Origin: a virus
Virus record (IMG/VR): IMGVR_UViG_3300036830_000180
Coordinates: 1-36,801 of that record
DNA length: 36,801 nucleotides
Strand: one strand, 5' to 3'
Made by a program: the position numbers and the translations under genes. This document shows positions 1 to 34,650 of the stretch, one piece after another. The notes under the pieces were generated by a model that was not told the origin of the DNA, made no database searches, and worked only from the letters and a program-made list of their open reading frames with translations. Each line of letters begins with the position of its first letter. The first letter of the stretch is position 1.

Positions 1-127
1 GGCAACAGATCGATTATCTGTTTCCCGACGTCGAGGAAAAAACCTTCGCGCTATACACCGACTTCATGCCCGGCGTCCGCATCCACGACCCTACGCGCAT
101 GATCGCAGCCATTGGTGACCAATTCGC
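1..127. repeat. Terminal direct repeat (left copy), circular-closure overlap
   Basis: The first 127 bases are identical to bases 36675-36801. The repeat sits inside an open reading frame that continues in phase across the join. An overlap of exactly 127 bases matches a common maximum k-mer length in short-read assemblers, so it is most simply an assembly overlap of a circular or circularly permuted molecule, not a biological terminal repeat. The unique genome length is then 36,674 bp. Confidence 0.95.
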
Positions 128-179
128 CCTGGAGAACTCGGCTGGTCCCATAAGCCGCTTCGAAGAAAAAGAAATTTGA
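1..179 (+). CDS. 3' part of a gene spanning the circular join, unknown function
   Basis: This is the end of the gene that starts with ATG at 36353. Joined across the circle it encodes 166 residues, with the codon phase beginning at base 3 and a TGA stop at 177-179. The visible C-terminal part is rich in acidic and aromatic residues (VEEKTFALYTDF) and ends in FEEKEI. I see no catalytic motif, membrane segment or signal peptide. It is the last gene of the early operon before the sigma-like genes, with only 41 bases to the next start. Family unknown. Confidence 0.75.
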   Translation, partial: QQIDYLFPDVEEKTFALYTDFMPGVRIHDPTRMIAAIGDQFALENSAGPISRFEEKEI

Positions 180-220
180 CTTTCCCGCCGCTGAATTGGA
201 TGTGAAATCTAGGAGTACAC

Positions 221-535
221 ATGCCTGAGAATCAGCGCGTCGTTTTGGTCGATGATAGCGCAGACATTATCCCGCTGCAGCGGCTGGCCGCTACGGCCGT
301 GTCGATATCGCGCCGGGTGCCCAGGTGGCACCCTGACGACAGCGAGGACAGTTTTCAAACCGCGTATGTCGCCGGCCTCTCGGCCGTTCGCAGCGCGCAA
401 AGACGCAACGCCCGACCGACGCAACCAATGATCTTGCGCGCGATGCGCAGGGCGGTCGGACGCCAACTATGCCGCAAACGTGCTCGTCGCTTCGCTGATA
501 AGCTCGGACGATTCTACTCAGACCGGCAGCATTGA
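221..535 (+). CDS. Sigma-like protein, N-terminal half (possible frameshifted pair)
   Basis: A 104-residue reading frame starting at ATG 221 behind a clear AGGAG (211-215). Residues 44-95 (SFQTAYVAGLSAVRS, then an Arg-rich stretch with LRAMRRAVGRQL) resemble the helical, DNA-contacting part of sigma-factor region 2. The match is by pattern only. The frame ends in a weak tail (GRFYSDRQH) that reads like out-of-frame sequence. The next frame, open from 432 to 713, carries a region-4-like helix-turn-helix. The two frames overlap and differ by +1. The simplest reading is one sigma-like gene of about 160 residues split by a frameshift, either programmed, mutational or a sequencing error. Independent translation is possible but the second half lacks a good ribosome-binding site. 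Confidence 0.5.
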   Translation: MPENQRVVLVDDSADIIPLQRLAATAVSISRRVPRWHPDDSEDSFQTAYVAGLSAVRSAQRRNARPTQPMILRAMRRAVGRQLCRKRARRFADKLGRFYSDRQH

Positions 536-713
536 TCCTTCCGAACTGCCCGGTCTTATGAGCCGCTGCGCGCTCACCGGCAAACAGAAGCTGGCCATCT
601 TCGCATTGATCGAAGGTCGCCGCGACCAATTCTGCCAGGCCCAGGGCATCACCCGCCGCGCGTTCTACTACCGCATTGCCGGTGCGATAAAACGCCTCCG
701 GGCCGCGGCGTAG
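480..713 (+). CDS. Sigma region 4-like HTH protein, C-terminal half of the split gene
   Basis: A 77-residue frame from GTG 480, with an alternative ATG at 558. Neither start has a convincing Shine-Dalgarno sequence. The C-terminal 50 residues read LTGKQKLAIFALIEGRR, then ITRRAFYYRIAGAIKRLR. This has the layout of sigma-70 region 4: a helix after LT.kQ, a turn, then a recognition helix with basic residues. In standalone sigma factors this domain binds the -35 element. The frame is open upstream to 432, so a +1 shift anywhere in 432-535 would fuse it to the region-2-like frame above. It may alternatively be a short DNA-binding regulator made by translational coupling. Confidence 0.5.
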   Translation: MLVASLISSDDSTQTGSIDPSELPGLMSRCALTGKQKLAIFALIEGRRDQFCQAQGITRRAFYYRIAGAIKRLRAAA

Positions 714-740
714 GCAAAACCTTCACTCCATCCAGGCGCC

Positions 741-755
741 GGCTATTTAACTCCA
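741..755 (+). repeat. Repeated motif GGCTATTTAACTC, copy 1
   Basis: GGCTATTTAACTCCA lies in the 84-base gap between the sigma-like frame and the membrane-protein gene at 798. The same 15-mer is at 10056-10070, a 13-base copy is at 16528-16540, and a one-mismatch copy is at 8082-8094. Copies 1 and 4 also share the upstream bases ATCCAGGC. Function unknown; a promoter element is one possibility because the core TATTTA is -10-like. Confidence 0.7.
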
Positions 756-797
756 CATCACGAGCGGTGTTTTTCTGATCTCAATTGGGGGGAATCG

Positions 798-1334
798 ATG
801 CGAAGATTTTCGGGGCTTGCGTATTTGTCGCTTGGTTTAGTGGGGCTGACATACGCATTTTTCATGGCGCTGACGGGCTGCGCGTCTCGCCTGCCGGCGA
901 GCGCGAACTTGCCCGCCTCTAAAGTGGCAAGCGCAGCCAGCCACGTCATGAAGACGCCGGCCGAGTTCAAAGCCGTGGCGACGACGATGGACGTGTTTAT
1001 CGTATTTGGGGTGGCCATCGTCTCCGCGGGTTTCTTCGTTTTCTTCGCTGCTCCGGAAGCGCATCGGTTGTCATCTGGACTACTCGGTGGCGGCGGCGCG
1101 CTCGTGGCCACGGCGCTTGTGGTTCATCTCTCTCTCTGGGCGCTGCCGCTGCTGTTTTGGGGAACGATTGGAATCGTCGCCGCCGCGGCCGTCGTGCTGG
1201 TGATTGAATTCTATCTGAAGATCAAGGCACAAAATCCGCCGACGGTGTCGGCCGCGATCGCGGACATTCCCGAAGCCGCGGCTTCGATCGGAGCGTCCAT
1301 CGCAAAGATGTGGCAGCCGGTCAGTCCCAAATAA
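798..1334 (+). CDS. Multi-spanning membrane protein with lipobox-like N-terminus; holin-like candidate
   Basis: A 178-residue protein starting at ATG 798 after a strong GGGGGGAA. Residues 5-29 form a hydrophobic signal-like segment ending in ALTGCAS, which resembles a lipobox with Cys about residue 28. Three more hydrophobic stretches follow at about 63-88 (VFIVFGVAIVSAGFFVFFAA), 92-112 and 114-138, then a soluble tail. It acts in the inner membrane. Its position next to a small membrane/coiled-coil gene at 1373 fits a lysis or membrane-associated pair, but no endolysin is recognisable nearby, so the holin assignment is only inference. It could equally be a superinfection-exclusion or unknown membrane protein. 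Confidence 0.7.
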   Translation: MRRFSGLAYLSLGLVGLTYAFFMALTGCASRLPASANLPASKVASAASHVMKTPAEFKAVATTMDVFIVFGVAIVSAGFFVFFAAPEAHRLSSGLLGGGGALVATALVVHLSLWALPLLFWGTIGIVAAAAVVLVIEFYLKIKAQNPPTVSAAIADIPEAAASIGASIAKMWQPVSPK

Positions 1335-1372
1335 TGTCCCTTCCCCGCTGATGAATAGTTTGTGAGGGGAAC

Positions 1373-1591
1373 GTGAATGAAGCGGTTTCCAAATTAGTCG
1401 AGTTCGCAGTTTCGGCGCTGGTGTCGGTCGTCGCGGCCGTGTGGCACCTGCGAGGCAAGATTGACAAAGTGAATGAACGCGTGGCCGTCGTCGAGGCGCG
1501 CCACAATGACCTGGATGGAAAGCTCAGGGAGGACATCGCCGCCATCAGGCGCGATATCGCCCTGCTCACCAGGGAAATGTTGAAACGCTGA
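1373..1591 (+). CDS. Small membrane-anchored coiled-coil protein
   Basis: A 72-residue protein starting at GTG 1373 behind GAGGGGAAC. Residues 6-24 are hydrophobic (LVEFAVSALVSVVAAVW) and form a likely membrane anchor. Residues 27-72 are heptad-like and charged (KVNERVAVVEARHNDLDG, then EDIAAIRRDIALLTREM), predicting a coiled coil. Small N-anchored coiled-coil proteins of this kind occur in phage lysis cassettes (XhlA- or spanin-like) and in the DUF2730-like family, but I cannot choose between them. It follows the membrane protein at 798 by 38 bases and is probably co-transcribed. Confidence 0.65.
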   Translation: MNEAVSKLVEFAVSALVSVVAAVWHLRGKIDKVNERVAVVEARHNDLDGKLREDIAAIRRDIALLTREMLKR

Positions 1592-1626
1592 GAACCTTTT
1601 CCCCGGCAGCTTTAGGATGAAACAAA

Positions 1627-1836
1627 ATGGATCCCGCAAAACTGGTGGAACTGCGCGAGACGATCGCGGCGCTTCATGCCGCGGGGTTTGCAAATCTGCT
1701 GGATGCGCTTGTCGAAAAAAGCTCATACACACGATGCGGCCGGGTGGCGATCGCCAAGGTGGCCAGGAACATGCAAACGTCCCGCTGGATCGCGCGCGAG
1801 CAGCTCAAATCAGCCATGGCCATCGCGGCGTTGTAG
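1627..1836 (+). CDS. Small helical protein directly upstream of the gp55-like sigma frame
   Basis: A 69-residue protein from ATG 1627. The composition is protein-like and helical: LVELRETIAALHAAGFANLL, then VAIAKVARNMQTSRWIAREQL. The second half could be a DNA-binding helix-turn-helix, though the match is weak. It ends at TAG 1834-1836, exactly where the next frame (-1 relative) becomes convincingly protein-like. It may be the N-terminal part of that sigma-like protein separated by a frameshift, or a separate small gene translationally coupled to it. I prefer this frame over the overlapping ATG 1617 frame because that one is Arg/Gly/His-rich until about 1830. Confidence 0.5.
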   Translation: MDPAKLVELRETIAALHAAGFANLLDALVEKSSYTRCGRVAIAKVARNMQTSRWIAREQLKSAMAIAAL

Positions 1837-2171
1837 AGCGCCGGTTCTTTAATCAACTCTTCACCGACACAGCCACCAACCGCGAGCCCATCATCCTCGC
1901 CCTGGTCCAGATCACCCATCTGGCGAGCAAGCTTTTTATTTTCAGGGACGAGGCCCACCGGTTGGATGCCAGGTCGACCGCGTTGCTTCATCTCATCGCT
2001 CACAGCATGGGAAAATTCGACAGCGGCCGTGGCGATGCGTTTGCATTCTTCTACGGCGCCGCGCTCAACGCCATGCGCGATCATCTGCACGGCCAAAAGA
2101 CCGCGGAGAGATTTGCCGTTCCATTGAATGATGCGATGAGCGCCGTCAGTTACACGCGGGCGCAAAGGTAA
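1734..2171 (+). CDS. gp55-like sigma factor (region 2 type), start uncertain
   Basis: The reliable part is about 1837-2171. It contains ALVQITHLASKLFIFRDEAH, then a helix, then MGKFDSGRGDAFAFFYGAAL and NAMRDHL. The pattern KFD..RG.AF.yfy..alNamRdhl is the hallmark of sigma region 2 in T4 gp55-type and related phage sigma factors, which direct host RNA polymerase to late promoters. There is no region 4, as in gp55. The only ATG/GTG/TTG starts in this frame are 1734 and 1617, and the sequence encoded before 1837 looks non-native. The true product may therefore begin in the 1627 frame and shift -1 near 1836, or use an unusual start. It precedes a small gene and a methyltransferase in the same operon. 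Confidence 0.55.
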   Translation: MRPGGDRQGGQEHANVPLDRARAAQISHGHRGVVERRFFNQLFTDTATNREPIILALVQITHLASKLFIFRDEAHRLDARSTALLHLIAHSMGKFDSGRGDAFAFFYGAALNAMRDHLHGQKTAERFAVPLNDAMSAVSYTRAQR

Positions 2172-2176
2172 AAATT

Positions 2177-2431
2177 ATGTGGAGCAAAGAGGATTTAGAA
2201 CGTCGCGACGCGGTCAAGCGGAATGAGAAAAACGCTGCCACCCGTGCTGGCAAGGTCGAACTTACCGGACGTGAAAAGCCGTATCAGCTTTCGATCGTTC
2301 GTGGTTCAACACGGCGGAATCTCGACTATTTGCAGCGCAAGGGGCTGAGCGAGGTCCGCGTCATTTCCCAGGGAAATATAGGTTTTGTGCTTCCACCTGC
2401 CGGTGGGGGAGGGGGTAAGGGTGAAAAATGA
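2177..2431 (+). CDS. Small basic protein, unknown
   Basis: An 84-residue protein from ATG 2177, six bases after the sigma-like stop. It is rich in Lys, Arg and Glu in the N-terminal half (SKEDLERRDAVKRNEKNAAT). The C-terminal half is strand-rich (YQLSIVRGSTRRNLDYLQRK, then SEVRVISQGNIGFVLPP) and ends in a Gly/Lys tail. The stop overlaps the next ATG (ATGA at 2428), so it is translationally coupled to the methyltransferase. The charge suggests nucleic-acid binding, but I recognise no family. Confidence 0.65.
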   Translation: MWSKEDLERRDAVKRNEKNAATRAGKVELTGREKPYQLSIVRGSTRRNLDYLQRKGLSEVRVISQGNIGFVLPPAGGGGGKGEK

Positions 2432-3210
2432 ATTTATCACAAACTTGCGTGGGGGGGGGGGGGGCAACCCTTTCTCTACAGCGCTGCGATTGCTTTGAAT
2501 TTTTGCGCGCTCAGCGCGATGAGTCCATCGACGCGCTGATCACCGATCCGCCGTATGGAACCATGGACGCGGCGTGGGACGTTGGCGGCTTCGACATCGA
2601 TCGATGGTGGCAGCTGGTGAAACAGAAATTGAAGCCCGCCGGCGTGGTGGTCTGCTTTGCCGCAGGAAGATTTTTGTTTCAGCTGCAGGCGTCGAATCCG
2701 CGCTGGTACCGCTATGACCTGGTGTGGGAAAAATCCGTTGCTTGTGGATTTTTGAACGCGGCTATTCAGCCGCTTCGGGCGCACGAGCAGGTTTTGGTTT
2801 TCACACCGAAGCTGAAAGCGTCGACGTACAACGCGCAGAAGATCGCGACAGGAAGAAAGGCAAGTGGAGCGCATCGCCGGCCGGCCAATCGTCGATCGAC
2901 TTTGTATCGTGGCCACGCCCACGGTTTCACCTGGGTGGATGACGGAACGCGTCATCCGGTCAGCGTGCTGCGTTTCGCATCGGTCGGAAGAAAAGATCGG
3001 TTGCATCCAACACAAAAGCCGCTGGACCTGGTCCGCTGGCTCGTTCGAACTTACAGCAACGCCGGCGACGTCGTTTGTGACACGTTCGCAGGCAGCGCGA
3101 CAACGGCCGAGGCCTGCGCGATCGAGAATCGGAATTTTGTAGGGTGTGAACGGGATCCGGGATTCTTCGAAGCGGCGACGCGGAGATTGGCGCCATACCT
3201 GGGAGGGTAG
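2428..3210 (+). CDS. DNA adenine/cytosine-N4 methyltransferase (beta class)
   Basis: A 260-residue DNA methyltransferase that transfers a methyl group from S-adenosylmethionine to an amino group in DNA. The catalytic motif DPPY is at residues 40-43. The HPTQKP signature common in phage modification methylases is near 193-199, and the SAM-binding motif DTFAGSATT is at about 218-226. This order (catalytic before SAM-binding) marks the beta group. The target-recognition segment lies between. No restriction nuclease is adjacent, so a role in protection from host restriction, or in host reprogramming, is likely. Most unusual is a run of 14 G at 2451-2464, codons 8-13, where a change of one base would abolish the frame. 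It is coupled to the preceding gene by ATGA. Confidence 0.9.
   Translation: MNLSQTCVGGGGATLSLQRCDCFEFLRAQRDESIDALITDPPYGTMDAAWDVGGFDIDRWWQLVKQKLKPAGVVVCFAAGRFLFQLQASNPRWYRYDLVWEKSVACGFLNAAIQPLRAHEQVLVFTPKLKASTYNAQKIATGRKASGAHRRPANRRSTLYRGHAHGFTWVDDGTRHPVSVLRFASVGRKDRLHPTQKPLDLVRWLVRTYSNAGDVVCDTFAGSATTAEACAIENRNFVGCERDPGFFEAATRRLAPYLGG
2451..2464 (+). repeat. Poly(G)14 tract inside the methyltransferase 5' coding region
   Basis: Fourteen consecutive G bases begin 23 bases after the ATG and encode Val-Gly-Gly-Gly-Gly-Ala in the current phase. Tracts of this length are typical hot spots for slipped-strand length change. Upstream at 2402-2421 are further G runs. Confidence 0.9.
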
Positions 3211-3213
3211 GGG

Positions 3214-3588
3214 ATGGTTCAGGATTATGAGTATAGATACATCGTTGAGAACCGCATGGCTGAACGGGGCGGCTATGCGCTTCGTCTTGAGCAACATGCG
3301 CGCCATCAGATTGGCATCAAGCTGCAGGAAATGCTGCTGAACGATCGGATTTTCACCGTCCAAATCACACGCGAAACGCGACTCGTGCAGCCCCTCGTTT
3401 TTCCGGACGTGCCTTTTCATGAGTACGACACCGAAGTGACGTTTCGAGTCAGGATCGGATGGTCGCAACACATGGAACTTGTCGTCGGTTCGCTGCCGGA
3501 TTATTCCGCGTTCAAACCGGTCCCGCTTGCGGCTTCAGCGCTGGCGGAACTCGGCCGTCGGTTCAAAAAAGCATTGTCCTGGGGGTAA
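3214..3588 (+). CDS. Hypothetical protein between methyltransferase and integrase
   Basis: A 124-residue protein from ATG 3214, three bases after the methyltransferase stop and following GGGAGGGTAGGGG. It is a mixed alpha/beta protein: DYEYRYIVENRMAERGGYAL at the N-terminus, strand-like FTVQITRETRLVQPLVFPDV and TEVTFRVRIGW in the middle, and a C-terminal basic helix (LAELGRRFKKALSWG). No catalytic motif, membrane segment or cysteine pair is evident. Four bases separate it from the integrase start. Function unknown. Confidence 0.7.
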   Translation: MVQDYEYRYIVENRMAERGGYALRLEQHARHQIGIKLQEMLLNDRIFTVQITRETRLVQPLVFPDVPFHEYDTEVTFRVRIGWSQHMELVVGSLPDYSAFKPVPLAASALAELGRRFKKALSWG

Positions 3589-3591
3589 AGG

Positions 3592-4515
3592 GTGGCGGGG
3601 GAAATCGTTCATGTTCTCGATGCTCAGCCGCTGGTGATCACCAGCGCGTACGCCGATGAGCTCGCGCGGCAAACGTCGCAGGACGATGAGTTGATTTCAA
3701 TGTGGCTCGATGGAATGAGCCGGCACACGGTCCGCGGCTACAAGCGCGCGCTGAAACAATTCCGAGACTTCGTTAAAAAGCCGCTGCGAGCCGTCACCTA
3801 TCCTGATGTTCGCGCATTTTCTGTGTCGCCGGCGATCGCTGAACTGGTCGGCAATTCACGCAAGACGGTTCTCAGCGCGATCAAGAGCCTGTTTTCCTAC
3901 GGCGCCAGGTTGAATTATTTTCTAGCCGACGTCGCTCATCCGTTGAAATTGCCAAAGCGTGAAGATGCTTTGAATGAGCGCATCCTGGATGAAGCAGAAG
4001 TGCAAGCGCTGATCGATGCCGGCGGCAACGGCCGCGATCGGCTCATCCTGGAAGTTTTTTACGTCGCCGGCGTGCGGGTCGAGGAGCTCGTGACGTTGTG
4101 TTGGAAGAATTGCCGGCCGCGGCGGGAAGGCGGACAGATCACTGTCACCGGCAAAGGCCGCAAGACCAGGTCGGTTTTACTACCGGCCGAAACATGGGCG
4201 GCGCTGCTCAACCATCGCGCCGGCGCCGGCGACGGCGAGCCCGTTTTCAAAAGCCGGCTCGGCCGACGGCTCGATGAGTCATCGGTCCTGCGAATGGTGA
4301 AGGCCGCGGCACTTCGCGCGGGGATACAAAAGCCGGTGTCGCCTCACTGGCTTCGGCACTGTCATGGCTCACATGCCCTGGATGGTGGCGCAAAGATTCA
4401 CGTTGTCCAGGCGACAATGGGTCACACCAGTATTGCCACCACATCGCAGTACCTACACGCGCGGCCGGCCGAGAGCTCATCATCGTTTATCAAGTTCAAA
4501 CGTCCGAACGCATGA
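3592..4515 (+). CDS. int: Tyrosine recombinase, XerC/D-like integrase
   Basis: A 307-residue site-specific recombinase starting at GTG 3592. Residues about 28-120 form the SAM-like N-terminal core-binding domain (HTVRGYKRALKQFRDFV). The catalytic domain shows the expected residues: Arg162 (AGVRVEEL), Lys188 (TGKGRKTR), His252 and Arg255 (PHWLRH), His278 (MGHTS) and the nucleophile Tyr287 (SQYLH). It cuts and rejoins att sites to integrate the phage. It has no arm-binding domain of the lambda type, so its architecture is that of Xer-like recombinases. The stop codon lies inside a perfect 11-bp inverted repeat (4506-4537) that could be its own core site. No excisionase was recognised. Confidence 0.92.
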   Translation: MAGEIVHVLDAQPLVITSAYADELARQTSQDDELISMWLDGMSRHTVRGYKRALKQFRDFVKKPLRAVTYPDVRAFSVSPAIAELVGNSRKTVLSAIKSLFSYGARLNYFLADVAHPLKLPKREDALNERILDEAEVQALIDAGGNGRDRLILEVFYVAGVRVEELVTLCWKNCRPRREGGQITVTGKGRKTRSVLLPAETWAALLNHRAGAGDGEPVFKSRLGRRLDESSVLRMVKAAALRAGIQKPVSPHWLRHCHGSHALDGGAKIHVVQATMGHTSIATTSQYLHARPAESSSSFIKFKRPNA

Positions 4516-4537
4516 TTACGCTTCTTATCATGCGTTC
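4506..4537. other. Candidate recombinase core site (attP/dif-like inverted repeat)
   Basis: GAACGCATGAT (4506-4516) and ATCATGCGTTC (4527-4537) are perfect 11-bp inverted arms separated by 10 bases, overlapping the integrase stop codon. Xer and other tyrosine recombinase core sites consist of two about 11-bp arms around a short central region. The spacer here is longer than the usual 6-8 bp. There is no following T run, which argues against an intrinsic terminator. Confidence 0.5.
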
Positions 4538-4552
4538 AACACCGGAGGGGCT

Positions 4553-4921
4553 GTGGACCAAGAATATCGGATCAAGCGCGGCTTCGAATTGAGATGCAAC
4601 CTCTCGCCGTGGACGCGCGGTGTGGAATTCTGTTTGTTTGACGGTCACGCTTACGCCACCGCGATCGTGATGAAGGCCGACGATGAACATGGCCGCGAGA
4701 TCAAACCGTTATTCAACTTACAGCCTGACGCGGCTCAGCAGCTGATGGATGACCTTTGGCGTGCCGGCTTACGGCCAAGCGAGGGAAGTGGCAGCGCCGG
4801 TTCATTGAAAGCAACCGAACGCCACCTCGACGACATGCGCATGCTCGTGTTTGCACTCGCGCCGTCAAAGATGCAGGCAGCGCTATCGTCGACCAGGATC
4901 ACTCCCTTCCCGAAAATCTAG
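4553..4921 (+). CDS. Conserved phage hypothetical protein
   Basis: A 122-residue protein starting at GTG 4553, three bases after a strong GGAGGGG (4544-4550). I chose this start because the upstream extension overlaps the integrase in another frame and has no such site. The N-terminal half is strand-rich (VEFCLFDGHAYATAIVMKAD). The middle carries QQLMDDLWRAGLRPSEGSGS, followed by SLKATERHLDDMRML, a combination I recall from many small phage proteins of unknown role. The C-terminal tail after FALAPSK is less conserved-looking. Function unknown; probably cytoplasmic. Confidence 0.7.
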   Translation: MDQEYRIKRGFELRCNLSPWTRGVEFCLFDGHAYATAIVMKADDEHGREIKPLFNLQPDAAQQLMDDLWRAGLRPSEGSGSAGSLKATERHLDDMRMLVFALAPSKMQAALSSTRITPFPKI

Positions 4922-4956
4922 CAACGGAATCAGCGCCGTCGAACGTACATAGTAAC

Positions 4957-5193
4957 GTGGCCGACTATCACTTTCATATCGATTTCGATGGGATCGCGGC
5001 ATTGCTTCGGCAGTTAGAGAGCGCCGGAATTCCGGCGCCTGCAGCCGCAGCGACGTTGCCGATCGCGAGGTTTGTACGGGTGGGTGGCAAGCTGACGGCG
5101 GCTGCTGCAGGGGCGGCGCCGGCGTTCTCTGTATCAATCACCAAGGGCGGGGAGACACGTGCTTTTAGCGAACACAGACCTGTCGGCGGTTGA
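4957..5193 (+). CDS. Small Ala-rich hypothetical protein
   Basis: A 78-residue frame from GTG 4957. The N-terminal part, ADYHFHIDFDGIAALLRQLE, is convincingly protein-like (strand followed by helix). A long Ala/Pro-rich middle and a strand-like VSITKGGETRAF end follow. It overlaps the 5' end of the next gene by 35 bases in another frame. No good ribosome-binding site is visible, so initiation may depend on the preceding gene. The frame is open further upstream but inside the 4553 gene. Function unknown. Confidence 0.45.
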   Translation: MADYHFHIDFDGIAALLRQLESAGIPAPAAAATLPIARFVRVGGKLTAAAAGAAPAFSVSITKGGETRAFSEHRPVGG

Positions 5194-5488
5194 CGACGCA
5201 TTTGAAGCCGTCGACACGCGCGAGTTCATCACAACGCGAATGGCGCAGCTCACCACGAAGCAGCGGCTAGTGGTGACGCGCCTGCTGGCGGGTGACGCGC
5301 TTGGATCGATTGCTCATCGTGAAGGCGTGAGCAAGAAGGCAATCTGTCACAGGTTGCGTGCGGCATTGCAGCGGATGCGACAAGACGGCGGGGGTGAGGG
5401 GGCGGGGGTAGGTTCTTTGGCGGTTCGCGCACGCAACGGTTGCCCTAGCGATTTGCGCGCGCGATCTTCAACCCAAAAAATTAACTGA
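5159..5488 (+). CDS. Sigma region 4-like HTH regulator
   Basis: A 109-residue protein from GTG 5159 with GGGGAG just upstream. Residues 24-75 (RMAQLTTKQRLVVTRLLAGD, then IAHREGVSKKAICHRLRAAL, then QRMRQ) match the sigma-70 region 4 or LuxR-type helix-turn-helix layout, with a recognition helix at SKKAICHRL. There is no region 2. After residue 78 the sequence becomes Gly/Ala/Arg-rich and probably disordered. It sits immediately upstream of the packaging genes, as do late-gene activators of many temperate phages, so control of late transcription is a reasonable inference. It may work with the region-2-like protein encoded near 1.8-2.2 kb. Confidence 0.65.
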   Translation: MLLANTDLSAVDDAFEAVDTREFITTRMAQLTTKQRLVVTRLLAGDALGSIAHREGVSKKAICHRLRAALQRMRQDGGGEGAGVGSLAVRARNGCPSDLRARSSTQKIN

Positions 5489-5500
5489 CCATTCTTTCCT

Positions 5501-5713
5501 ATGCCTCCGGACCTGGCATTCCTGGCAATGTTTGGCGACTACATCGGTGATCTCACCTGTGCCGGCTGGGGGTTCTTTCTCGAATCTAACACCGGCGTCT
5601 TGTGGCAGCTGACCTGGTCACAGTTTCGGACCGCGCATCAGCGCATCGACCTGGCTCCGGAACGTTTTGAAGGCTGGCGATTGATCGCGCTGAGGCCACC
5701 AGACCATGCGTGA
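5501..5713 (+). CDS. Small hypothetical protein before the small terminase
   Basis: A 70-residue protein from ATG 5501. It is rich in aromatic residues (GDYIGDLTCAGWGFFLESNT, then LWQLTWSQFR) and ends with FEGWRLIALRPPDHA. The ribosome-binding site is weak (TTTCCT). The stop overlaps the start of the terminase small subunit by eight bases, consistent with coupling. It might be an HNH- or packaging-associated accessory, but no motif supports this. Function unknown. Confidence 0.5.
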   Translation: MPPDLAFLAMFGDYIGDLTCAGWGFFLESNTGVLWQLTWSQFRTAHQRIDLAPERFEGWRLIALRPPDHA

Positions 5714-6167
5714 CAAAACCACCGAAGAAACGTGCGAAGAGTTTGAGGTTGACGAATCCACCATCAAGCGCTGGATCGAACGCGGGTTGCCGTGCGATCG
5801 CGAAGGCCGCGGCGTGCCGCGGCTGTTTGATTTTGCGGAAGTGGCGGCATGGAAGATTCAGAACAATGTCACCGGCGAGGCTGGCCGGCCAGCAGAGACG
5901 GACGACGCGCTCAAGGCCGCTAAGACCCGCAAGGAATTGGCTCTTGCGGAGAAGCATGAAATTGAGCTCGCGCGGGTCAAGGGGTTGCTGGTCGACAAAG
6001 CGGTTGTCGAGTCGGCGAACATTCAAAAGTTCACCGTGATCCGCAACAAGTTCCTGGGCCTGGCGGCATCGATCGCGCCAATGCTCGAGGGCCAGGACCC
6101 GGCGTCGATCGAAGTGCTACTGGATCAGCGCATACGGGAAATTCTGGAGGAACTGAGCAGGACCTGA
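5706..6167 (+). CDS. terS: Terminase small subunit, Nu1-like
   Basis: A 153-residue protein from ATG 5706. Residues 4-50 form a MerR/Nu1-type winged helix (TCEEFEVDESTIKRWIERGL, then GVPRLFDFAEVAAW) that would bind the packaging site. Residues 65-105 are a long charged helix (KTRKELALAEKHEIELARVK), as in Nu1 proteins, where it mediates assembly and contact with the large subunit. It is followed one base later by the large terminase. Lambda-type terminases of this pair cut at cos sites, but no cos site could be identified by eye. Confidence 0.85.
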   Translation: MRDKTTEETCEEFEVDESTIKRWIERGLPCDREGRGVPRLFDFAEVAAWKIQNNVTGEAGRPAETDDALKAAKTRKELALAEKHEIELARVKGLLVDKAVVESANIQKFTVIRNKFLGLAASIAPMLEGQDPASIEVLLDQRIREILEELSRT

Positions 6168-6168
6168 A

Positions 6169-8076
6169 GTGGGGGCGGGGATGTGTCTTTTTACCGAACG
6201 TGAAGCCCGGGCGCTATGCGCGCCTGAGAAGCTGTCCCCCTCAGAGTGGGCCGAGGCATACCGTTACCTGGCGCCGACGATCGCCGCCGAGCCTGGCAAG
6301 TACCGCGGCGACAGGACCCCCTATATCGCGGGGCTCATTGATTCGATTCAAGAGCCAGGCGTCGAAGAAATCGTCTTTCTAAAAGCCGCGCAGGTCGGCT
6401 TCACAACCGCACTTCAACATCTGCTTGGCTGGATCATCGACCAGGAACCGGCGCCGACGCTCCTGGTCATGCCGTCGGACAAGGAATCGCGCAAGCTCGT
6501 CGACGAAAATTTGAAACCGCTGATCGAACAAACCGAGCAGCTGCAGGCCCACGTCCCACCCGAAGCCGACGCGATCACAAAAGAAACACTTCGTTTCGAT
6601 TCCTGCTCATTGTTCATGGCATCGGCTTGCTCGCCTCAGACGCTCGCGCGCCGCGCATGCCGCTTCGTGTTCATGGACGAGGTTGACAAGTATCCCAAAT
6701 TCAGCGGCAAGGACGCCGACCCGATTTCCCTCGCCCGCGCCCGGGCCAGGACTTACAAGCATCGCAAGCGCGTCATCATCGGTTCAACACCCACTACGCG
6801 CGAAGGCGCCGTGTGGCGTGCCTGGGAAGATTGCAGCGATCGGCGCCGCTACCACGTCCCATGCCCCCATTGCGGCGAGTTCCAAACTCTGAACTTCGGC
6901 CAGGTTCGTTTCGACTTCCCGGAAGTGAAAGCGATCGGCTCTAAGAGCCGGCGGGCCGACTACATCGAATCGCGGCAAGTTGCCCATTACGAATGTGTTC
7001 ATTGCAAAGAGGCTATACGCGACAGCCACAAACAAGCCATGCTCCTGCGCGGCGCGTGGCTCAGTGAAACACAAACCATCAGCCGTGCCGGCGAGATCTC
7101 CGGCGAGCGGCCCAGGGCCAAGCGTGTCGGCTTCCACCTGTCAGCGCTTTACTCGCCGTGGGTTTCATTCTCCGACATGGCCGCGGCGTTCACTCGCGCG
7201 CTGGGCGATGCGCCGAAAATGATGGAGTTCAAAAACCAGTGGCTCGCCGAGGTTTTTGAAGAGCTCATTAAGCAGATAAAGGCCGAGGACCTGCGCGACC
7301 AGCTGCTCAAGGGCGCCGCGGCCGCCGGCATCGTGCCGAAGTGGGCCCACGTTGTCGTCACCACTGTCGACGTGCAACAGCACACGTTTTATCTCGTGAC
7401 GCGCGCGTGGGGTGCCGGCAATCGAAGCCGGCTGATTTGGCTTGGAAACTTGCCCACGTTCGAAATGGTGAAGAAGCGCGGCCTCGACACGCCGTACCCA
7501 GTAGAGGGCGGCGGATCCACCACGCCTCAGCTTCTCGCGATCGACACCGGCTATCGAACGGACGAGGTTTACGACTTCGCGTCCACCGACGCGCGCATCC
7601 AATGCGTGAAGGGGAATCCAAACCCAAAGAAAACCATCCTGCGTTCGCAGGCATCCGTTGAACTTGGCATAGAGCTCGCGCTGCTCGACACGCAGTATTA
7701 CAAGGATCGTCTGATCACGCTGCGCAGTGAAAAGCGCTGGGAGGTGAATGTCAGCGCCACCGACGAGTACTTCCGGCACCTGGCCGCGGAGATGAAGGTT
7801 CGGGACCGCAAGAACGGGCGGTTCGTCTGGAAGCCTGTTTCAGAAGGCGCGGCCAATCACTTCCTGGACTGCGAGGTGTATCAAGTCGCCGCGGCCGACA
7901 TGCTGGAGATTGCGACGCTGCCTGATGAAGAGGAACAACCCGTAGTTCCGCCACCACCGCCGCCACAAGTCTCCAGCGTAGCGCCACCGCCGGCGACGAC
8001 CGTGCTTCACAAGGGGGATGGTCAATCGTCCTGGGTAACCGGCGGAAGTGGCGGCGACAGTTGGGTCGGCTCGTAG
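6169..8076 (+). CDS. terL: Terminase large subunit, GpA family
   Basis: A 635-residue DNA-packaging motor and nuclease. The ATPase domain has a Walker A-like segment (KAAQVGFTT, residues 72-80) and Walker B MDEVDKYP near 169-176. Two cysteine pairs, CPHC near 231 and CVHC near 276, form a zinc-binding element seen in GpA proteins. The C-terminal nuclease domain has VVTTVDVQQHTFYLVTRAWG near 395 and LAIDTGYRTDEVYDF near 456, with metal-binding acidic residues. The last 45 residues are Pro-rich and probably flexible. I took GTG 6169 (AGGA six bases upstream, one base after the small-subunit stop); ATG 6181 behind GGGGCGGGG is an alternative. Confidence 0.95.
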   Translation: MGAGMCLFTEREARALCAPEKLSPSEWAEAYRYLAPTIAAEPGKYRGDRTPYIAGLIDSIQEPGVEEIVFLKAAQVGFTTALQHLLGWIIDQEPAPTLLVMPSDKESRKLVDENLKPLIEQTEQLQAHVPPEADAITKETLRFDSCSLFMASACSPQTLARRACRFVFMDEVDKYPKFSGKDADPISLARARARTYKHRKRVIIGSTPTTREGAVWRAWEDCSDRRRYHVPCPHCGEFQTLNFGQVRFDFPEVKAIGSKSRRADYIESRQVAHYECVHCKEAIRDSHKQAMLLRGAWLSETQTISRAGEISGERPRAKRVGFHLSALYSPWVSFSDMAAAFTRALGDAPKMMEFKNQWLAEVFEELIKQIKAEDLRDQLLKGAAAAGIVPKWAHVVVTTVDVQQHTFYLVTRAWGAGNRSRLIWLGNLPTFEMVKKRGLDTPYPVEGGGSTTPQLLAIDTGYRTDEVYDFASTDARIQCVKGNPNPKKTILRSQASVELGIELALLDTQYYKDRLITLRSEKRWEVNVSATDEYFRHLAAEMKVRDRKNGRFVWKPVSEGAANHFLDCEVYQVAAADMLEIATLPDEEEQPVVPPPPPPQVSSVAPPPATTVLHKGDGQSSWVTGGSGGDSWVGS

Positions 8077-16540: not shown

Positions 16541-16575
16541 AGCAGGGAACGTCATCAGGGGAAGGCGGGGGGTTT

Positions 16576-20075: not shown

Positions 20076-20091
20076 TAGCAGGGGGGAAGAG

Positions 20092-29572: not shown

Positions 29573-29765
29573 AAGCAAACACTAACAAACTTTGGAGACC
29601 TGACCGTCTGCAGGTTTGAGCCGCGGGACATCATTCGACGGATCGGCGTTTGGGCCTTCGATCATTTCGGGTTCCCCTACAGTTGACGCTGATTTGCTCG
29701 CGGACCTCCATGAAGTGAACGCAGAACGATGAACGCAGAATGCAGAACGAAGAAAGGAAAGAACT
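29573..29765. other. Intergenic gap with repeat and weak promoter-like TTGACG
   Basis: About 190 bases without a convincing gene; a 16-codon frame at 29569-29619 is too short to call. TTGACG at about 29683 resembles a -35 box, but no good -10 follows. The right end (29716-29758) carries repeat copy 1 of the GAATGCAGAA family. Confidence 0.5.
29716..29758 (+). repeat. GAAYGCAGAAYG repeat, copy 1
   Basis: Tandem-like units GTGAACGCAGAACGATG, AACGCAGAATGCAGAACG, ending AAGAAAGG, which serves as the ribosome-binding site for the ATG at 29766. Similar copies are at 30003-30048 and 34309-34345. Confidence 0.8.
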
Positions 29766-30017
29766 ATGACACCATTTCAAACCAACATTCTCGTGGCATT
29801 CGGAAAGAACGGCGGGCTCCTGTTGCCCAAGGATCAATCCACGCGCAGGGCGTGCAACACGCTGGCTTCGAAAAAGATGTTGCGGCCGCAGACGGTATTC
29901 GAGACCAAAAGCCTCGCGCGGAAGAACGCCAAGATTCAAGTCGCGTATCAGATCACGCCCCAGGGTAGGCGGCGGCTGCAAGCCGCTGATGAACCACAAA
30001 CAGTAAATGCAGAATGA
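29766..30017 (+). CDS. Small winged-helix-like protein
   Basis: An 83-residue protein from ATG 29766 with AAAGGAAAG upstream provided by the repeat. The sequence TNILVAFGKNGGLLLPKDQS, ACNTLASKKMLRPQTVFETK and KIQVAYQITPQGRRRLQAAD has the helix-turn-helix-wing layout with a final ..I.T..G+..L motif common in small winged-helix proteins. Its last residues (TVNAE) and stop are encoded by the next repeat copy. A regulatory role is inferred. Confidence 0.65.
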   Translation: MTPFQTNILVAFGKNGGLLLPKDQSTRRACNTLASKKMLRPQTVFETKSLARKNAKIQVAYQITPQGRRRLQAADEPQTVNAE

Positions 30018-30048
30018 TGAATGCAGAATGCAGAACGGAGAAAGGAAA
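30003..30048 (+). repeat. GAAYGCAGAAYG repeat, copy 2
   Basis: Units AATGCAGAATGATG and AATGCAGAATGCAGAACGG, ending GAGAAAGGAAA. It supplies the stop of the gene before and the ribosome-binding site of the gene at 30053. Confidence 0.8.
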
Positions 30049-31485: not shown

Positions 31486-31730
31486 GCGCAACACTCACTC
31501 CGGACATGCTCGATCGCATCATCCTTGAAGGGCTGACCACGTATCGCAAGCGCATGAACCTGAAGGGCGCGGTGCCGATCGTGTGCATCGGCGTTGCCCG
31601 CGGCGAACTTGTCATGTGTCTCACGGAGGAAGTGGGGCTCGATGCCACCGTGTCAATCCTGCGTCACACCCTGGCCGCGCTGGAAGCGCAGGCCGAATCA
31701 ACAACCATTTTGAAAGGAGTTGGATCTTGA
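31482..31730 (+). CDS. Small early protein preceding ParB-methyltransferase
   Basis: An 82-residue protein from GTG 31482. TPDMLDRIILEGLTTYRKRM and AVPIVCIGVARGELVMCLTE give helix and strands, then LDATVSILRHTLAALEAQAE. Unknown. Its stop overlaps the TTG start of the next gene (TTGA), giving coupling. Confidence 0.6.
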   Translation: MSATLTPDMLDRIILEGLTTYRKRMNLKGAVPIVCIGVARGELVMCLTEEVGLDATVSILRHTLAALEAQAESTTILKGVGS

Positions 31731-33205
31731 GCCTGAAGTTTATTCCCCACCCGCTCGCCCGCGCGCTGGTCAAGGACGACAGCTACAAGGAACTGCGGGA
31801 AAACATCAAGGAGCACGAGCAGCTGCTTCCGGTCCTGGGCGTCAAAGGACCGCACAATGGGGACGTTCTTGTGTTCGATGGCATCCGCCGCATGAACGCC
31901 TGCCTGGAGCTGCGGCTGCCGATCAAACACGTCGTCGTCGATTACAAAGCCGACGAACTGCCCGAGCGGATTGCGGCGCTGAATTGCCAGCGCTGGGACC
32001 AGACGCCGGCACAACGCGCGGCTTATTGCGTCGAATATGTGCTCCCGGCTATGATGGCCCTGGCGAAGGAACGGCAGCGGCTCAGCGCGGGCCGGCCGGG
32101 AGAGGAAGAAAAAGGTAGCGCACGTGTGCGCTACCCTGAGAAAGTGGGGGAAAAAACGGAGACCGCGGGGACGGCGGATAAAGGTAGCGCACACGTGCGC
32201 TACCTTAAAGACTTGGGAAAAGCGTGCGAGCGCGCGGCGAAAATCTGCCGCTGCGGCGTCCGGAATGTAGAGCATCTCTGGCGGCTGAAAAAATCCGAGC
32301 CCAAGCTTGTCGATCAAGTCGCCGCTGGGGATATCAATGCCCGCCAAGCCGTCCGCCGTTTCAAACTTCAGGAAGATGAAGCGACGCTGAAGCGCGAAGC
32401 CCGCGCGATGGAGGACGTTCCCGCCTCCGACCTTTGGCGAATCGTCACCGGCGACAACGCCAAGATTCTTCCCACACTCGCGCGCCGCCGCTTCCCTCTG
32501 ATCGTTTGCGATCCTCAGTACAACATCGGCTACGAATATGGCGATGGTAGTCCTAGCGACAAGATGCCGGCGAAGGATTATCTGGCGCTGGCCCAGGGAT
32601 GGATCGAAGAATCGATCGAGTTGCTCACCGCCACGGGATCAATGTGGATCATCATCAATGATGAATGGGCGGCGCAATTCAAACTGATGGCCGAAGCCGC
32701 AGGCCTGCACGTGCGATCGTGGGTGAAGTGGTACGAAACCTATGGCGCCAACTGCACGGAAAAATTCAACCGCACATCGCGGCACTGTTTTCATCTTGTG
32801 AGGGATCTGAAGCGCTTCACGTTCCACTACAAAGTTTTTGAGCGGCCCACCGATCGCAAGGCCATCTACAATGACAAACGCGCGGCCGCGCCGACCAAGC
32901 TGGCGGACGATGTTTGGATCATCTCTCGCGTCGTCACCGGTACGGAGCGCATGCCGAGTTTTCCGACGCAGCTACCTCTCACGCTCGTCTCGCGCATCGT
33001 CGAAGGATGCAGCAACCCCGGCGATGAAGTGGCGGATTTCTTTTCCGGCAGCGGCACCACCGGCGAAGCGGCGGTAAGATCGGGGCGGCGCTATTTTGGC
33101 ATCGAGATCAATCCTCGCTACGCCGAGTTGAGCCGCGCAAGGCTGAACCGCGTCCTGAAAAAACGCGAAGAGCGCCAGGCCCAGAAACAGGGAGTCAAAT
33201 CGTGA
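31727..33205 (+). CDS. ParB-domain / HTH / DNA methyltransferase fusion
   Basis: A 492-residue protein from TTG 31727 with AAGGAG nine bases upstream; the frame further upstream overlaps the preceding gene. Residues ~1-100 are a ParB/Sulfiredoxin-like domain (YKELRENIKEHEQLLPVLGV, VFDGIRRMNACLEL). Residues ~164-212 are a ParB-type HTH (CRCGVRNVEHLWRLKKSEPK, VAAGDINARQAVRRFK). Residues ~250-492 are a beta-class DNA methyltransferase, with DPQYN at 262-266 (instead of DPPY) and DFFSGSGTT at 437-445. The linker (130-160) is encoded by two 22-bp palindromes. It may bind a site and methylate it; ParB-methylase fusions occur in phages and plasmids. Confidence 0.88.
   Translation: MSLKFIPHPLARALVKDDSYKELRENIKEHEQLLPVLGVKGPHNGDVLVFDGIRRMNACLELRLPIKHVVVDYKADELPERIAALNCQRWDQTPAQRAAYCVEYVLPAMMALAKERQRLSAGRPGEEEKGSARVRYPEKVGEKTETAGTADKGSAHVRYLKDLGKACERAAKICRCGVRNVEHLWRLKKSEPKLVDQVAAGDINARQAVRRFKLQEDEATLKREARAMEDVPASDLWRIVTGDNAKILPTLARRRFPLIVCDPQYNIGYEYGDGSPSDKMPAKDYLALAQGWIEESIELLTATGSMWIIINDEWAAQFKLMAEAAGLHVRSWVKWYETYGANCTEKFNRTSRHCFHLVRDLKRFTFHYKVFERPTDRKAIYNDKRAAAPTKLADDVWIISRVVTGTERMPSFPTQLPLTLVSRIVEGCSNPGDEVADFFSGSGTTGEAAVRSGRRYFGIEINPRYAELSRARLNRVLKKREERQAQKQGVKS
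32114..32135. repeat. Palindrome GGTAGCGCAC-GT-GTGCGCTACC
   Basis: Perfect ten-base arms with a two-base centre, in frame in the ParB-methyltransferase gene (residues ~130-136, GSARVRY). The second copy is 69 bases downstream and is its reverse complement. Confidence 0.85.
32183..32204. repeat. Palindrome GGTAGCGCAC-AC-GTGCGCTACC
   Basis: Reverse complement of the copy at 32114, with arms extendable to 12 bases (32181-32206). It encodes GSAHVRY in the linker of the same protein. Confidence 0.85.
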
Positions 33206-34300: not shown

Positions 34301-34650
34301 AGAAAGTCGGAATGCAGAATGCAGAACGCAGAACGAAGAGAAAGGCGCTGCATGCGATCGCGGCGCAATGCGTGGATGGAAGCGAAGCGACGCGCGATCG
34401 GATTCTAGAACTGCTCGATGATGGAAAGGAACACATGCGTGTAATCGAAGCAATTTTTGCTTTTGTGGTGACCGATGATCACGGCGTTGAGGGCGTCGTT
34501 CGGCGCGCCACGGATGACGGCACGCAACCGGCGATCTCCGATTCATTGGAGCGTTTGGAGATGTTTCGGCCGGAAGCCGAGCGCGTCGCCGGCGAGATGA
34601 GAATGCCGCTGACAATCGCGCGGTTCGTCCGCGCGAAGGAGATTCAGTAA
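34297..34650 (+). CDS. Early protein with a repeat-encoded N-terminus
   Basis: A 117-residue frame from GTG 34297. Residues 5-15 (GMQNAERRTKR) are encoded by repeat copy 3, so the native start may be further downstream; no ATG with a good site follows nearby. Beyond residue 17: ALHAIAAQCVDGSEATRDRI, LELLDDGKEHMRVIEAIFAF, DGTQPAISDSLERLEMFRPE. The middle is helical. Function unknown. TAATG overlap with the J-domain gene. Confidence 0.6.
   Translation: MKKVGMQNAERRTKRKALHAIAAQCVDGSEATRDRILELLDDGKEHMRVIEAIFAFVVTDDHGVEGVVRRATDDGTQPAISDSLERLEMFRPEAERVAGEMRMPLTIARFVRAKEIQ
34309..34345 (+). repeat. GAAYGCAGAAYG repeat, copy 3
   Basis: GGAATGCAGAATGCAG followed by AACGCAGAACGAAGAG, ending AAAGG. 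It lies inside the 5' end of the 34297 reading frame and is translated there, unlike copies 1 and 2. Confidence 0.75.

Follow-up and report, generated by a model that had tools for sequence, protein, structure and literature searches.

A 14-guanine tract in the reading frame of an orphan phage DNA methyltransferase, a candidate phase-variable switch

A run of 14 guanines (G14) lies inside the reading frame of a stand-alone DNA methyltransferase gene of a tailed phage, and we propose that it is a working hypermutable repeat that makes this orphan enzyme phase-variable. Judged from the sequence, we put the probability of this reading at about two in three. The window, meaning the whole stretch of DNA that was analysed, comprises the 36,801 bases (GC 0.587) of an IMG/VR virus record. 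Genes for a gpA-type terminase, a lambda-type portal, a head maturation protease, a tail-fibre protein and a tyrosine recombinase were recognised in it, and the virus is therefore a tailed phage, probably a temperate one. The features that the argument relies on are the following.

2177–2431, + strand: upstream ORF of 84 aa without family match, with a stop codon that overlaps the start of the methyltransferase gene (ATGA)
2403–2427, + strand: G-rich leader with the Shine-Dalgarno-like GGAGGGGGTAAGGGTG ahead of ATG 2428 (from sequence)
2428–3210, + strand: beta-class N6/N4 DNA methyltransferase, 260 aa, intact at G14 (Pfam, motifs, model)
2428–2469, + strand: N-terminal extension MNLSQTCVGGGGAT, preceding the conserved strand/GDC motif and containing the tract
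2451–2464, + strand: G14 homopolymer, encoding Gly9–Gly12
2545–2556, + strand: catalytic motif IV, DPPY, residues 40–43, typical of N6-adenine enzymes
3004–3021, + strand: HPTQKP, motif X region, residues 193–198
3085–3105, + strand: FAGSATT, SAM-binding motif I, residues 220–226
3214–3588, + strand: 124-aa ORF without family match, 3 bases past the methyltransferase stop
3592–4515, + strand: tyrosine recombinase/integrase, ending an apparent close-packed gene run
31583–33205, + strand: second methyltransferase, ParB-like N-terminus plus N6_N4_Mtase, without homopolymer tract (internal contrast)

The preliminary description of this DNA had placed a run of 14 G at codons 8–13 of the gene, and the run is indeed there. 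Read from the ATG at 2428, the codons are ATG AAT TTA TCA CAA ACT TGC GTG GGG GGG GGG GGG GCA, and the tract therefore begins with the third base of codon 8, takes in codons 9–12 whole and closes with the first base of codon 13. Its length is that of one allele in one contig, the IMG/VR virus record carrying no attached reads. It is the sole G-run of more than six bases in the window, where five runs of six and none of 7–13 were counted; according to the window's own statistics, 2e-4 (first order) or 1e-5 (second order) runs of 14 or more would be expected. For comparison, the longest G/C run in 275 viral and bacterial loci picked by protein homology (2.48 Mb) was 9, with 41 runs of length 7, 11 of length 8 and 10 of length 9. 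All four of the glycine codons in the tract are GGG, a codon used for 16% of the glycines in the rest of the window (P ~6e-4), where GGC is the usual choice. A long repeat beyond chance, in or before a coding region, is one of the marks of a contingency locus, and G14 has it.

The assignment of the gene product to the beta-class DNA methyltransferases, made earlier on sight of the sequence, was supported by a match to Pfam N6_N4_Mtase (PF01555) over residues 34–251 (E 3e-29, 102.9 bits versus a curated cut-off of 26.7) and by the motif order IV (DPPY), X (HPTQKP) and I (FxGxGTT). In the last of these, an A replaces the G of the consensus, as it also does in L042. The nearest solved structure is M.MboIIA (1g60). 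Most relatives of the enzyme begin with only 1–8 residues before the conserved strand/GDC motif, and the extension in the window is longer. The AlphaFold2 model, with a mean pLDDT of 90.5 (73 for the first ten residues), placed strands at residues 4–8 and 14–18, with Gly9–12 forming a turn. These glycines lie within the N-terminal extension and outside the catalytic domain, and on this model the gain or loss of a whole codon, a change of three bases, should therefore be tolerated.

Changes of other sizes have a different effect on the frame. With a tract of 8, 11, 14 or 17, the frame stays open as far as the stop at 3210, from either ATG 2428 or GTG 2449, and the other lengths tested between 9 and 19 ran into a stop at 2498 or 2539, 21–38 aa from ATG 2428. 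The earlier expectation that a one-base change would switch the enzyme off thus holds as far as the frame is concerned, since both +1 and −1 truncate the product to such a short peptide. A native start downstream of the tract had been named as an observation that would speak against switching. No start (ATG, GTG or TTG) that keeps the conserved N-terminal strand is situated past the tract; downstream of it, the nearest canonical start in frame is TTG 2503, which lies beyond the conserved GDC-like motif and has no visible Shine-Dalgarno sequence, and such a native start is therefore not seen. A further mark of a contingency locus, which the gene displays, is that one repeat unit more or less shifts the frame and that no usable start follows the tract. 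As to the start itself, the GGAGGGGGTAAGGGTG leader is a putative ribosome-binding site of ATG 2428, and translation from this ATG is probably coupled to the upstream ORF, because the stop of that ORF overlaps it. Runs of six G were also observed immediately before start codons at 787–792, 16567–16572 and 20081–20086, and the phage seems to favour G-rich ribosome-binding sites.

The methyltransferase gene, the 124-aa ORF and the integrase gene follow each other in close-packed order, and one may speculate that the OFF state could lower translation of the genes that follow. No restriction endonuclease of a known family was found among the ORFs 2177–2431 and 3214–3588 (Pfam, PHROG and PADLOC), and ORF 1617–2171 had no Pfam or PADLOC match in the search for a restriction partner. 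An adjacent cognate endonuclease, the hallmark of a type II restriction-modification system, was thus not recognised among known nuclease families, and the enzyme is therefore best called an orphan. Elsewhere in the window, the ORF of the ParB-like methyltransferase contains two near-identical palindromes at 32110–32210 (GGTAGCGCACGTGTGCGCTACC and GGTAGCGCACACGTGCGCTACC), which resemble a mobile palindromic repeat. Heptad repeats (GAACGCA / AATGCAG) occur at 29717–29754, 30006–30035 and 34310–34339, near the ribosome-binding sites of small genes (TRF scores 39–48).

The nearest phages, L166 and L167, have terminases that are 57% and 51% identical, respectively, and L166 also carries the closest methyltransferase (48% identical), which lacks the tract. 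Among ~150 relatives of the enzyme, a G/C run of 9 close to the 5′ end occurs in only one. Phage orphan N6-adenine methyltransferases (PHROG 67 and similar), among which those of Vibrio, Pseudomonas and Flavobacterium phages are ~40% identical to the window's enzyme, share its family and fold class but differ in that no G/C run of 10 or more was present at the 5′ end of the relatives fetched. Positions 1–8000 of the window gave no nucleotide match to cultured phages, and a search of IMG/VR with the exact flanks of the tract and a free gap of 0–30 returned no second allele. With neither a second allele nor a close relative found, switching in this particular phage is a property that we infer.

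Under the proposed mechanism, the tract would gain or lose one G by slipped-strand mispairing at replication. Tracts whose length is 2 modulo 3 would give the full enzyme, and the other lengths would give the short peptide and no enzyme, so that the progeny would be a mix of methylating and non-methylating phages or lysogens. The predicted activity of the enzyme would then be of use, most likely, as a hedge, in which protection from host restriction is set against the cost of methylation or methylation-dependent defences.

The preliminary description had also suggested looking for the tract in related phages. The phage's own relatives lack it, as described above, but other phage methyltransferases do carry tracts, and these vary in length in nature. 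IMG/VR was scanned for runs of nine or more G (G9+) located 60–90 nt ahead of a DPPY codon string. This returned 30 stretches, mostly real methyltransferases, versus 26 with G9+ after DPPY; therefore, no positional preference is claimed at length 9, and an enrichment upstream of DPPY was dropped as a candidate result. The layout seen in the window, in which an ATG lies 19–28 nt before the G-run and the run just before the first methyltransferase strand, recurs in several unrelated stand-alone enzymes: in frame in L228 and L229, and out of frame in L227 and L234, with a Shine-Dalgarno-like site. In L212, the gene is out of frame from the upstream start, and an ATG directly follows the tract. 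The window's G14 is the longest tract found at its site.

Direct comparison of contigs revealed the length differences. L224, with G9 and an intact ORF, and L208, with G10 and a broken frame, align over 5,896 bp with 0 mismatches and one 1-base gap, which lies in the tract. Against L209 (G10), L224 aligns over 6,469 bp with 16 mismatches and a single gap, the same as that seen against L208. The gene concerned is a ParB-fused phage methyltransferase immediately upstream of a gpA-type terminase, and its tract is located at the hinge before the methyltransferase domain. In another case, a single contig of 28,059 bp has ends, L252 and L254, that overlap by ~157 bp, one reading G10 and the other G9 inside a methyltransferase gene, as if one sample contained both tract lengths.

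A family of C5-methyltransferases, the relatives of L402, has a tract at one fixed site with lengths of G11–G15 that cover all three reading phases. In tract-free C5 homologues, motif X shares the frame of the N-terminus in 43/47 informative cases, and the canonical C5 state is therefore 1 modulo 3. The 0 modulo 3 state had first been taken as ON because the query was itself such an allele; it was rejected on the evidence of the tract-free homologues. The canonical phase is found in the tract-bearing members L469, L475 and L476 (G13), seven members are in a second phase that connects to the overlapping WVEWLMGW frame, and L470, L472, L474 and L484 are in the third, truncated phase. Members were ranked by their similarity to a query in the second phase, and this biases the counts. 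Between L467 and L468, 3,394 bp of alignment contain two substitutions and a single 3-nt gap, which is placed at the tract by its flanks. C5 relatives in seven cultured phage records had no G-run of 8 or more. A second long ORF overlaps the C5 gene in another frame (MSWLF...WVEWLMGW), and a second independent tract site occurs in the PCQDIS loop of L372, L477 and L535. The phage of L372 has exactly two tracts of G10 or longer, namely G15 in the C5 enzyme and G10 in a ParB-fused enzyme.

At the level of sequence, these comparisons show that phage methyltransferase genes repeatedly contain poly-G tracts which set the frame and whose lengths differ between contigs. A base-call or assembly error could still lie behind any single contig pair. 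Recurrence and length differences elsewhere make it likely that the longer tract of the window behaves in the same way as these varying tracts.

The same observations bear on whether the tract may be real and mutable but incidental, that is, an expansion of glycine codons in a dispensable N-terminal tail with no selected role in switching. The extension lies outside the fold and is unique to this protein, and the leader and the end of the upstream gene are also G-rich (GGTGGGGGAGGGGGTAAGGG), in a phage that uses G-rich leaders, all of which would be in line with such an expansion. A mutable tract in which most slips destroy the gene carries a cost, however, if the OFF state is neither tolerated nor of any use; the codons are exclusively GGG although GGC dominates elsewhere, and similar tracts recur in unrelated phage methyltransferases. 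We consider an incidental repeat improbable on these grounds.

An artefact, in which the true run is shorter or absent and G14 stems from PCR stutter, two-colour poly-G calling or a false join, was weighed against a scan of IMG/VR for runs of 14 or more G (G14+). At least 120 stretches matched, of which 80 were examined as an arbitrary, not random, sample. Among the matches listed, 58 of 89 G14+ runs lay within 150 bases of the end of a stretch and 31 were internal; therefore, poly-G artefacts do exist in this collection. Homopolymers are also prone to PCR and assembly error, and the flank search of IMG/VR and the tract-free relatives provide no second contig with the tract. The tract of the window, on the other hand, is internal and has no N gap, both of its sides belong to one open frame and the start of that frame overlaps the upstream gene. 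A false join through 14 bases would presumably need spanning reads at the usual assembly k-mers, and other phages from separate metagenomes show a tract independently at the same site. An artefact is thus a rather improbable source of the run. Methyltransferase genes held five of the 31 internal G14+ tracts among the matches listed: L344, L355 and L402 belong to one C5 family and share the same tract site, L372 is of the same family with the other site (PCQDIS loop), and L404 has its tract in an N6 enzyme. Methyltransferase matches account for 0.3% of terminase-selected loci and for 0.9% of the loci of the G14+ scan. At the latter share, which counts just two methyltransferase models made in this analysis, five or more of 31 would be found with a binomial P of ~8e-6, or 0.002 when three independent families are counted. 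The G15 of L404 (13592–13606) breaks the frame of its N6 methyltransferase gene, and the name of the contig suggests an isolate genome.

A regulatory element, in which the G-rich leader and G14 would fold (as a hairpin or G-quadruplex) or recruit ribosomes and tune the methyltransferase and the downstream integrase, with length acting as a rheostat and not as a frame switch, could draw on the G-runs on either side of the start (2405–2424 and 2451–2464) and on a predicted RNA hairpin that pairs the tract with downstream pyrimidines, but we judge it highly improbable, as the predicted fold is not unusual (z −1.5), an Rfam search gave no match to a riboswitch or other known RNA, no start lies 5–12 nt past the tract, and changes in length act first on the frame because the tract is inside it.

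A phase-variable methyltransferase would resemble two known kinds of system. In Campylobacter phages, hypermutable polyG tracts switch a receptor-binding protein (Sorensen et al. 2021, cited in PMC11868660). As far as that citation describes them, they share with the window a poly-G in a phage gene, there with simple-sequence-repeat switching of a phage phenotype, and they differ in that the tract is in the receptor-binding protein gene, whereas in the window it is in a methyltransferase gene of an unclassified virus (58.7% GC) that carries an integrase, for which switching is presumed. Bacterial DNA methyltransferases (type III mod and others) are phase-variable by repeats, forming phasevarions (PMC13076061, PMC11868660). 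They too have a repeat tract in a methyltransferase frame, with ON and OFF set by the frame, but they are chromosomal restriction-modification genes, whereas the phage-borne enzyme stands alone, with no restriction partner found. The phasevarion label additionally requires changed host gene expression. The C5 family (L402/L461) and the ParB-methyltransferase of L224 are alike in having long coding G-tracts whose length sets the frame and which are seen in several lengths; they differ in methyltransferase family and tract site, and their tracts are not homologous to that of the window. Poly-G switching of phage-borne orphan methyltransferases appears to be unreported in the open-access literature searched, subscription papers and preprints being outside the scope of the search.

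More broadly, we regard it as an evenly balanced question whether phage methyltransferases of several unrelated families, the beta-class N6, ParB-fused N6 and C5 types, have repeatedly acquired coding poly-G tracts as widespread phage contingency loci, with environmental populations that mix differently methylated particles and with the window as one case. If so, some phages would hedge genetically instead of committing to one DNA modification state, which would bear on the way phages overcome the restriction barriers of their hosts and on mixed methylation in phage populations. Coding poly-G in an orphan methyltransferase would then be a sequence signature open to testing in viromes sequenced with long reads, from which tract length and base modification are readable on the same molecule.
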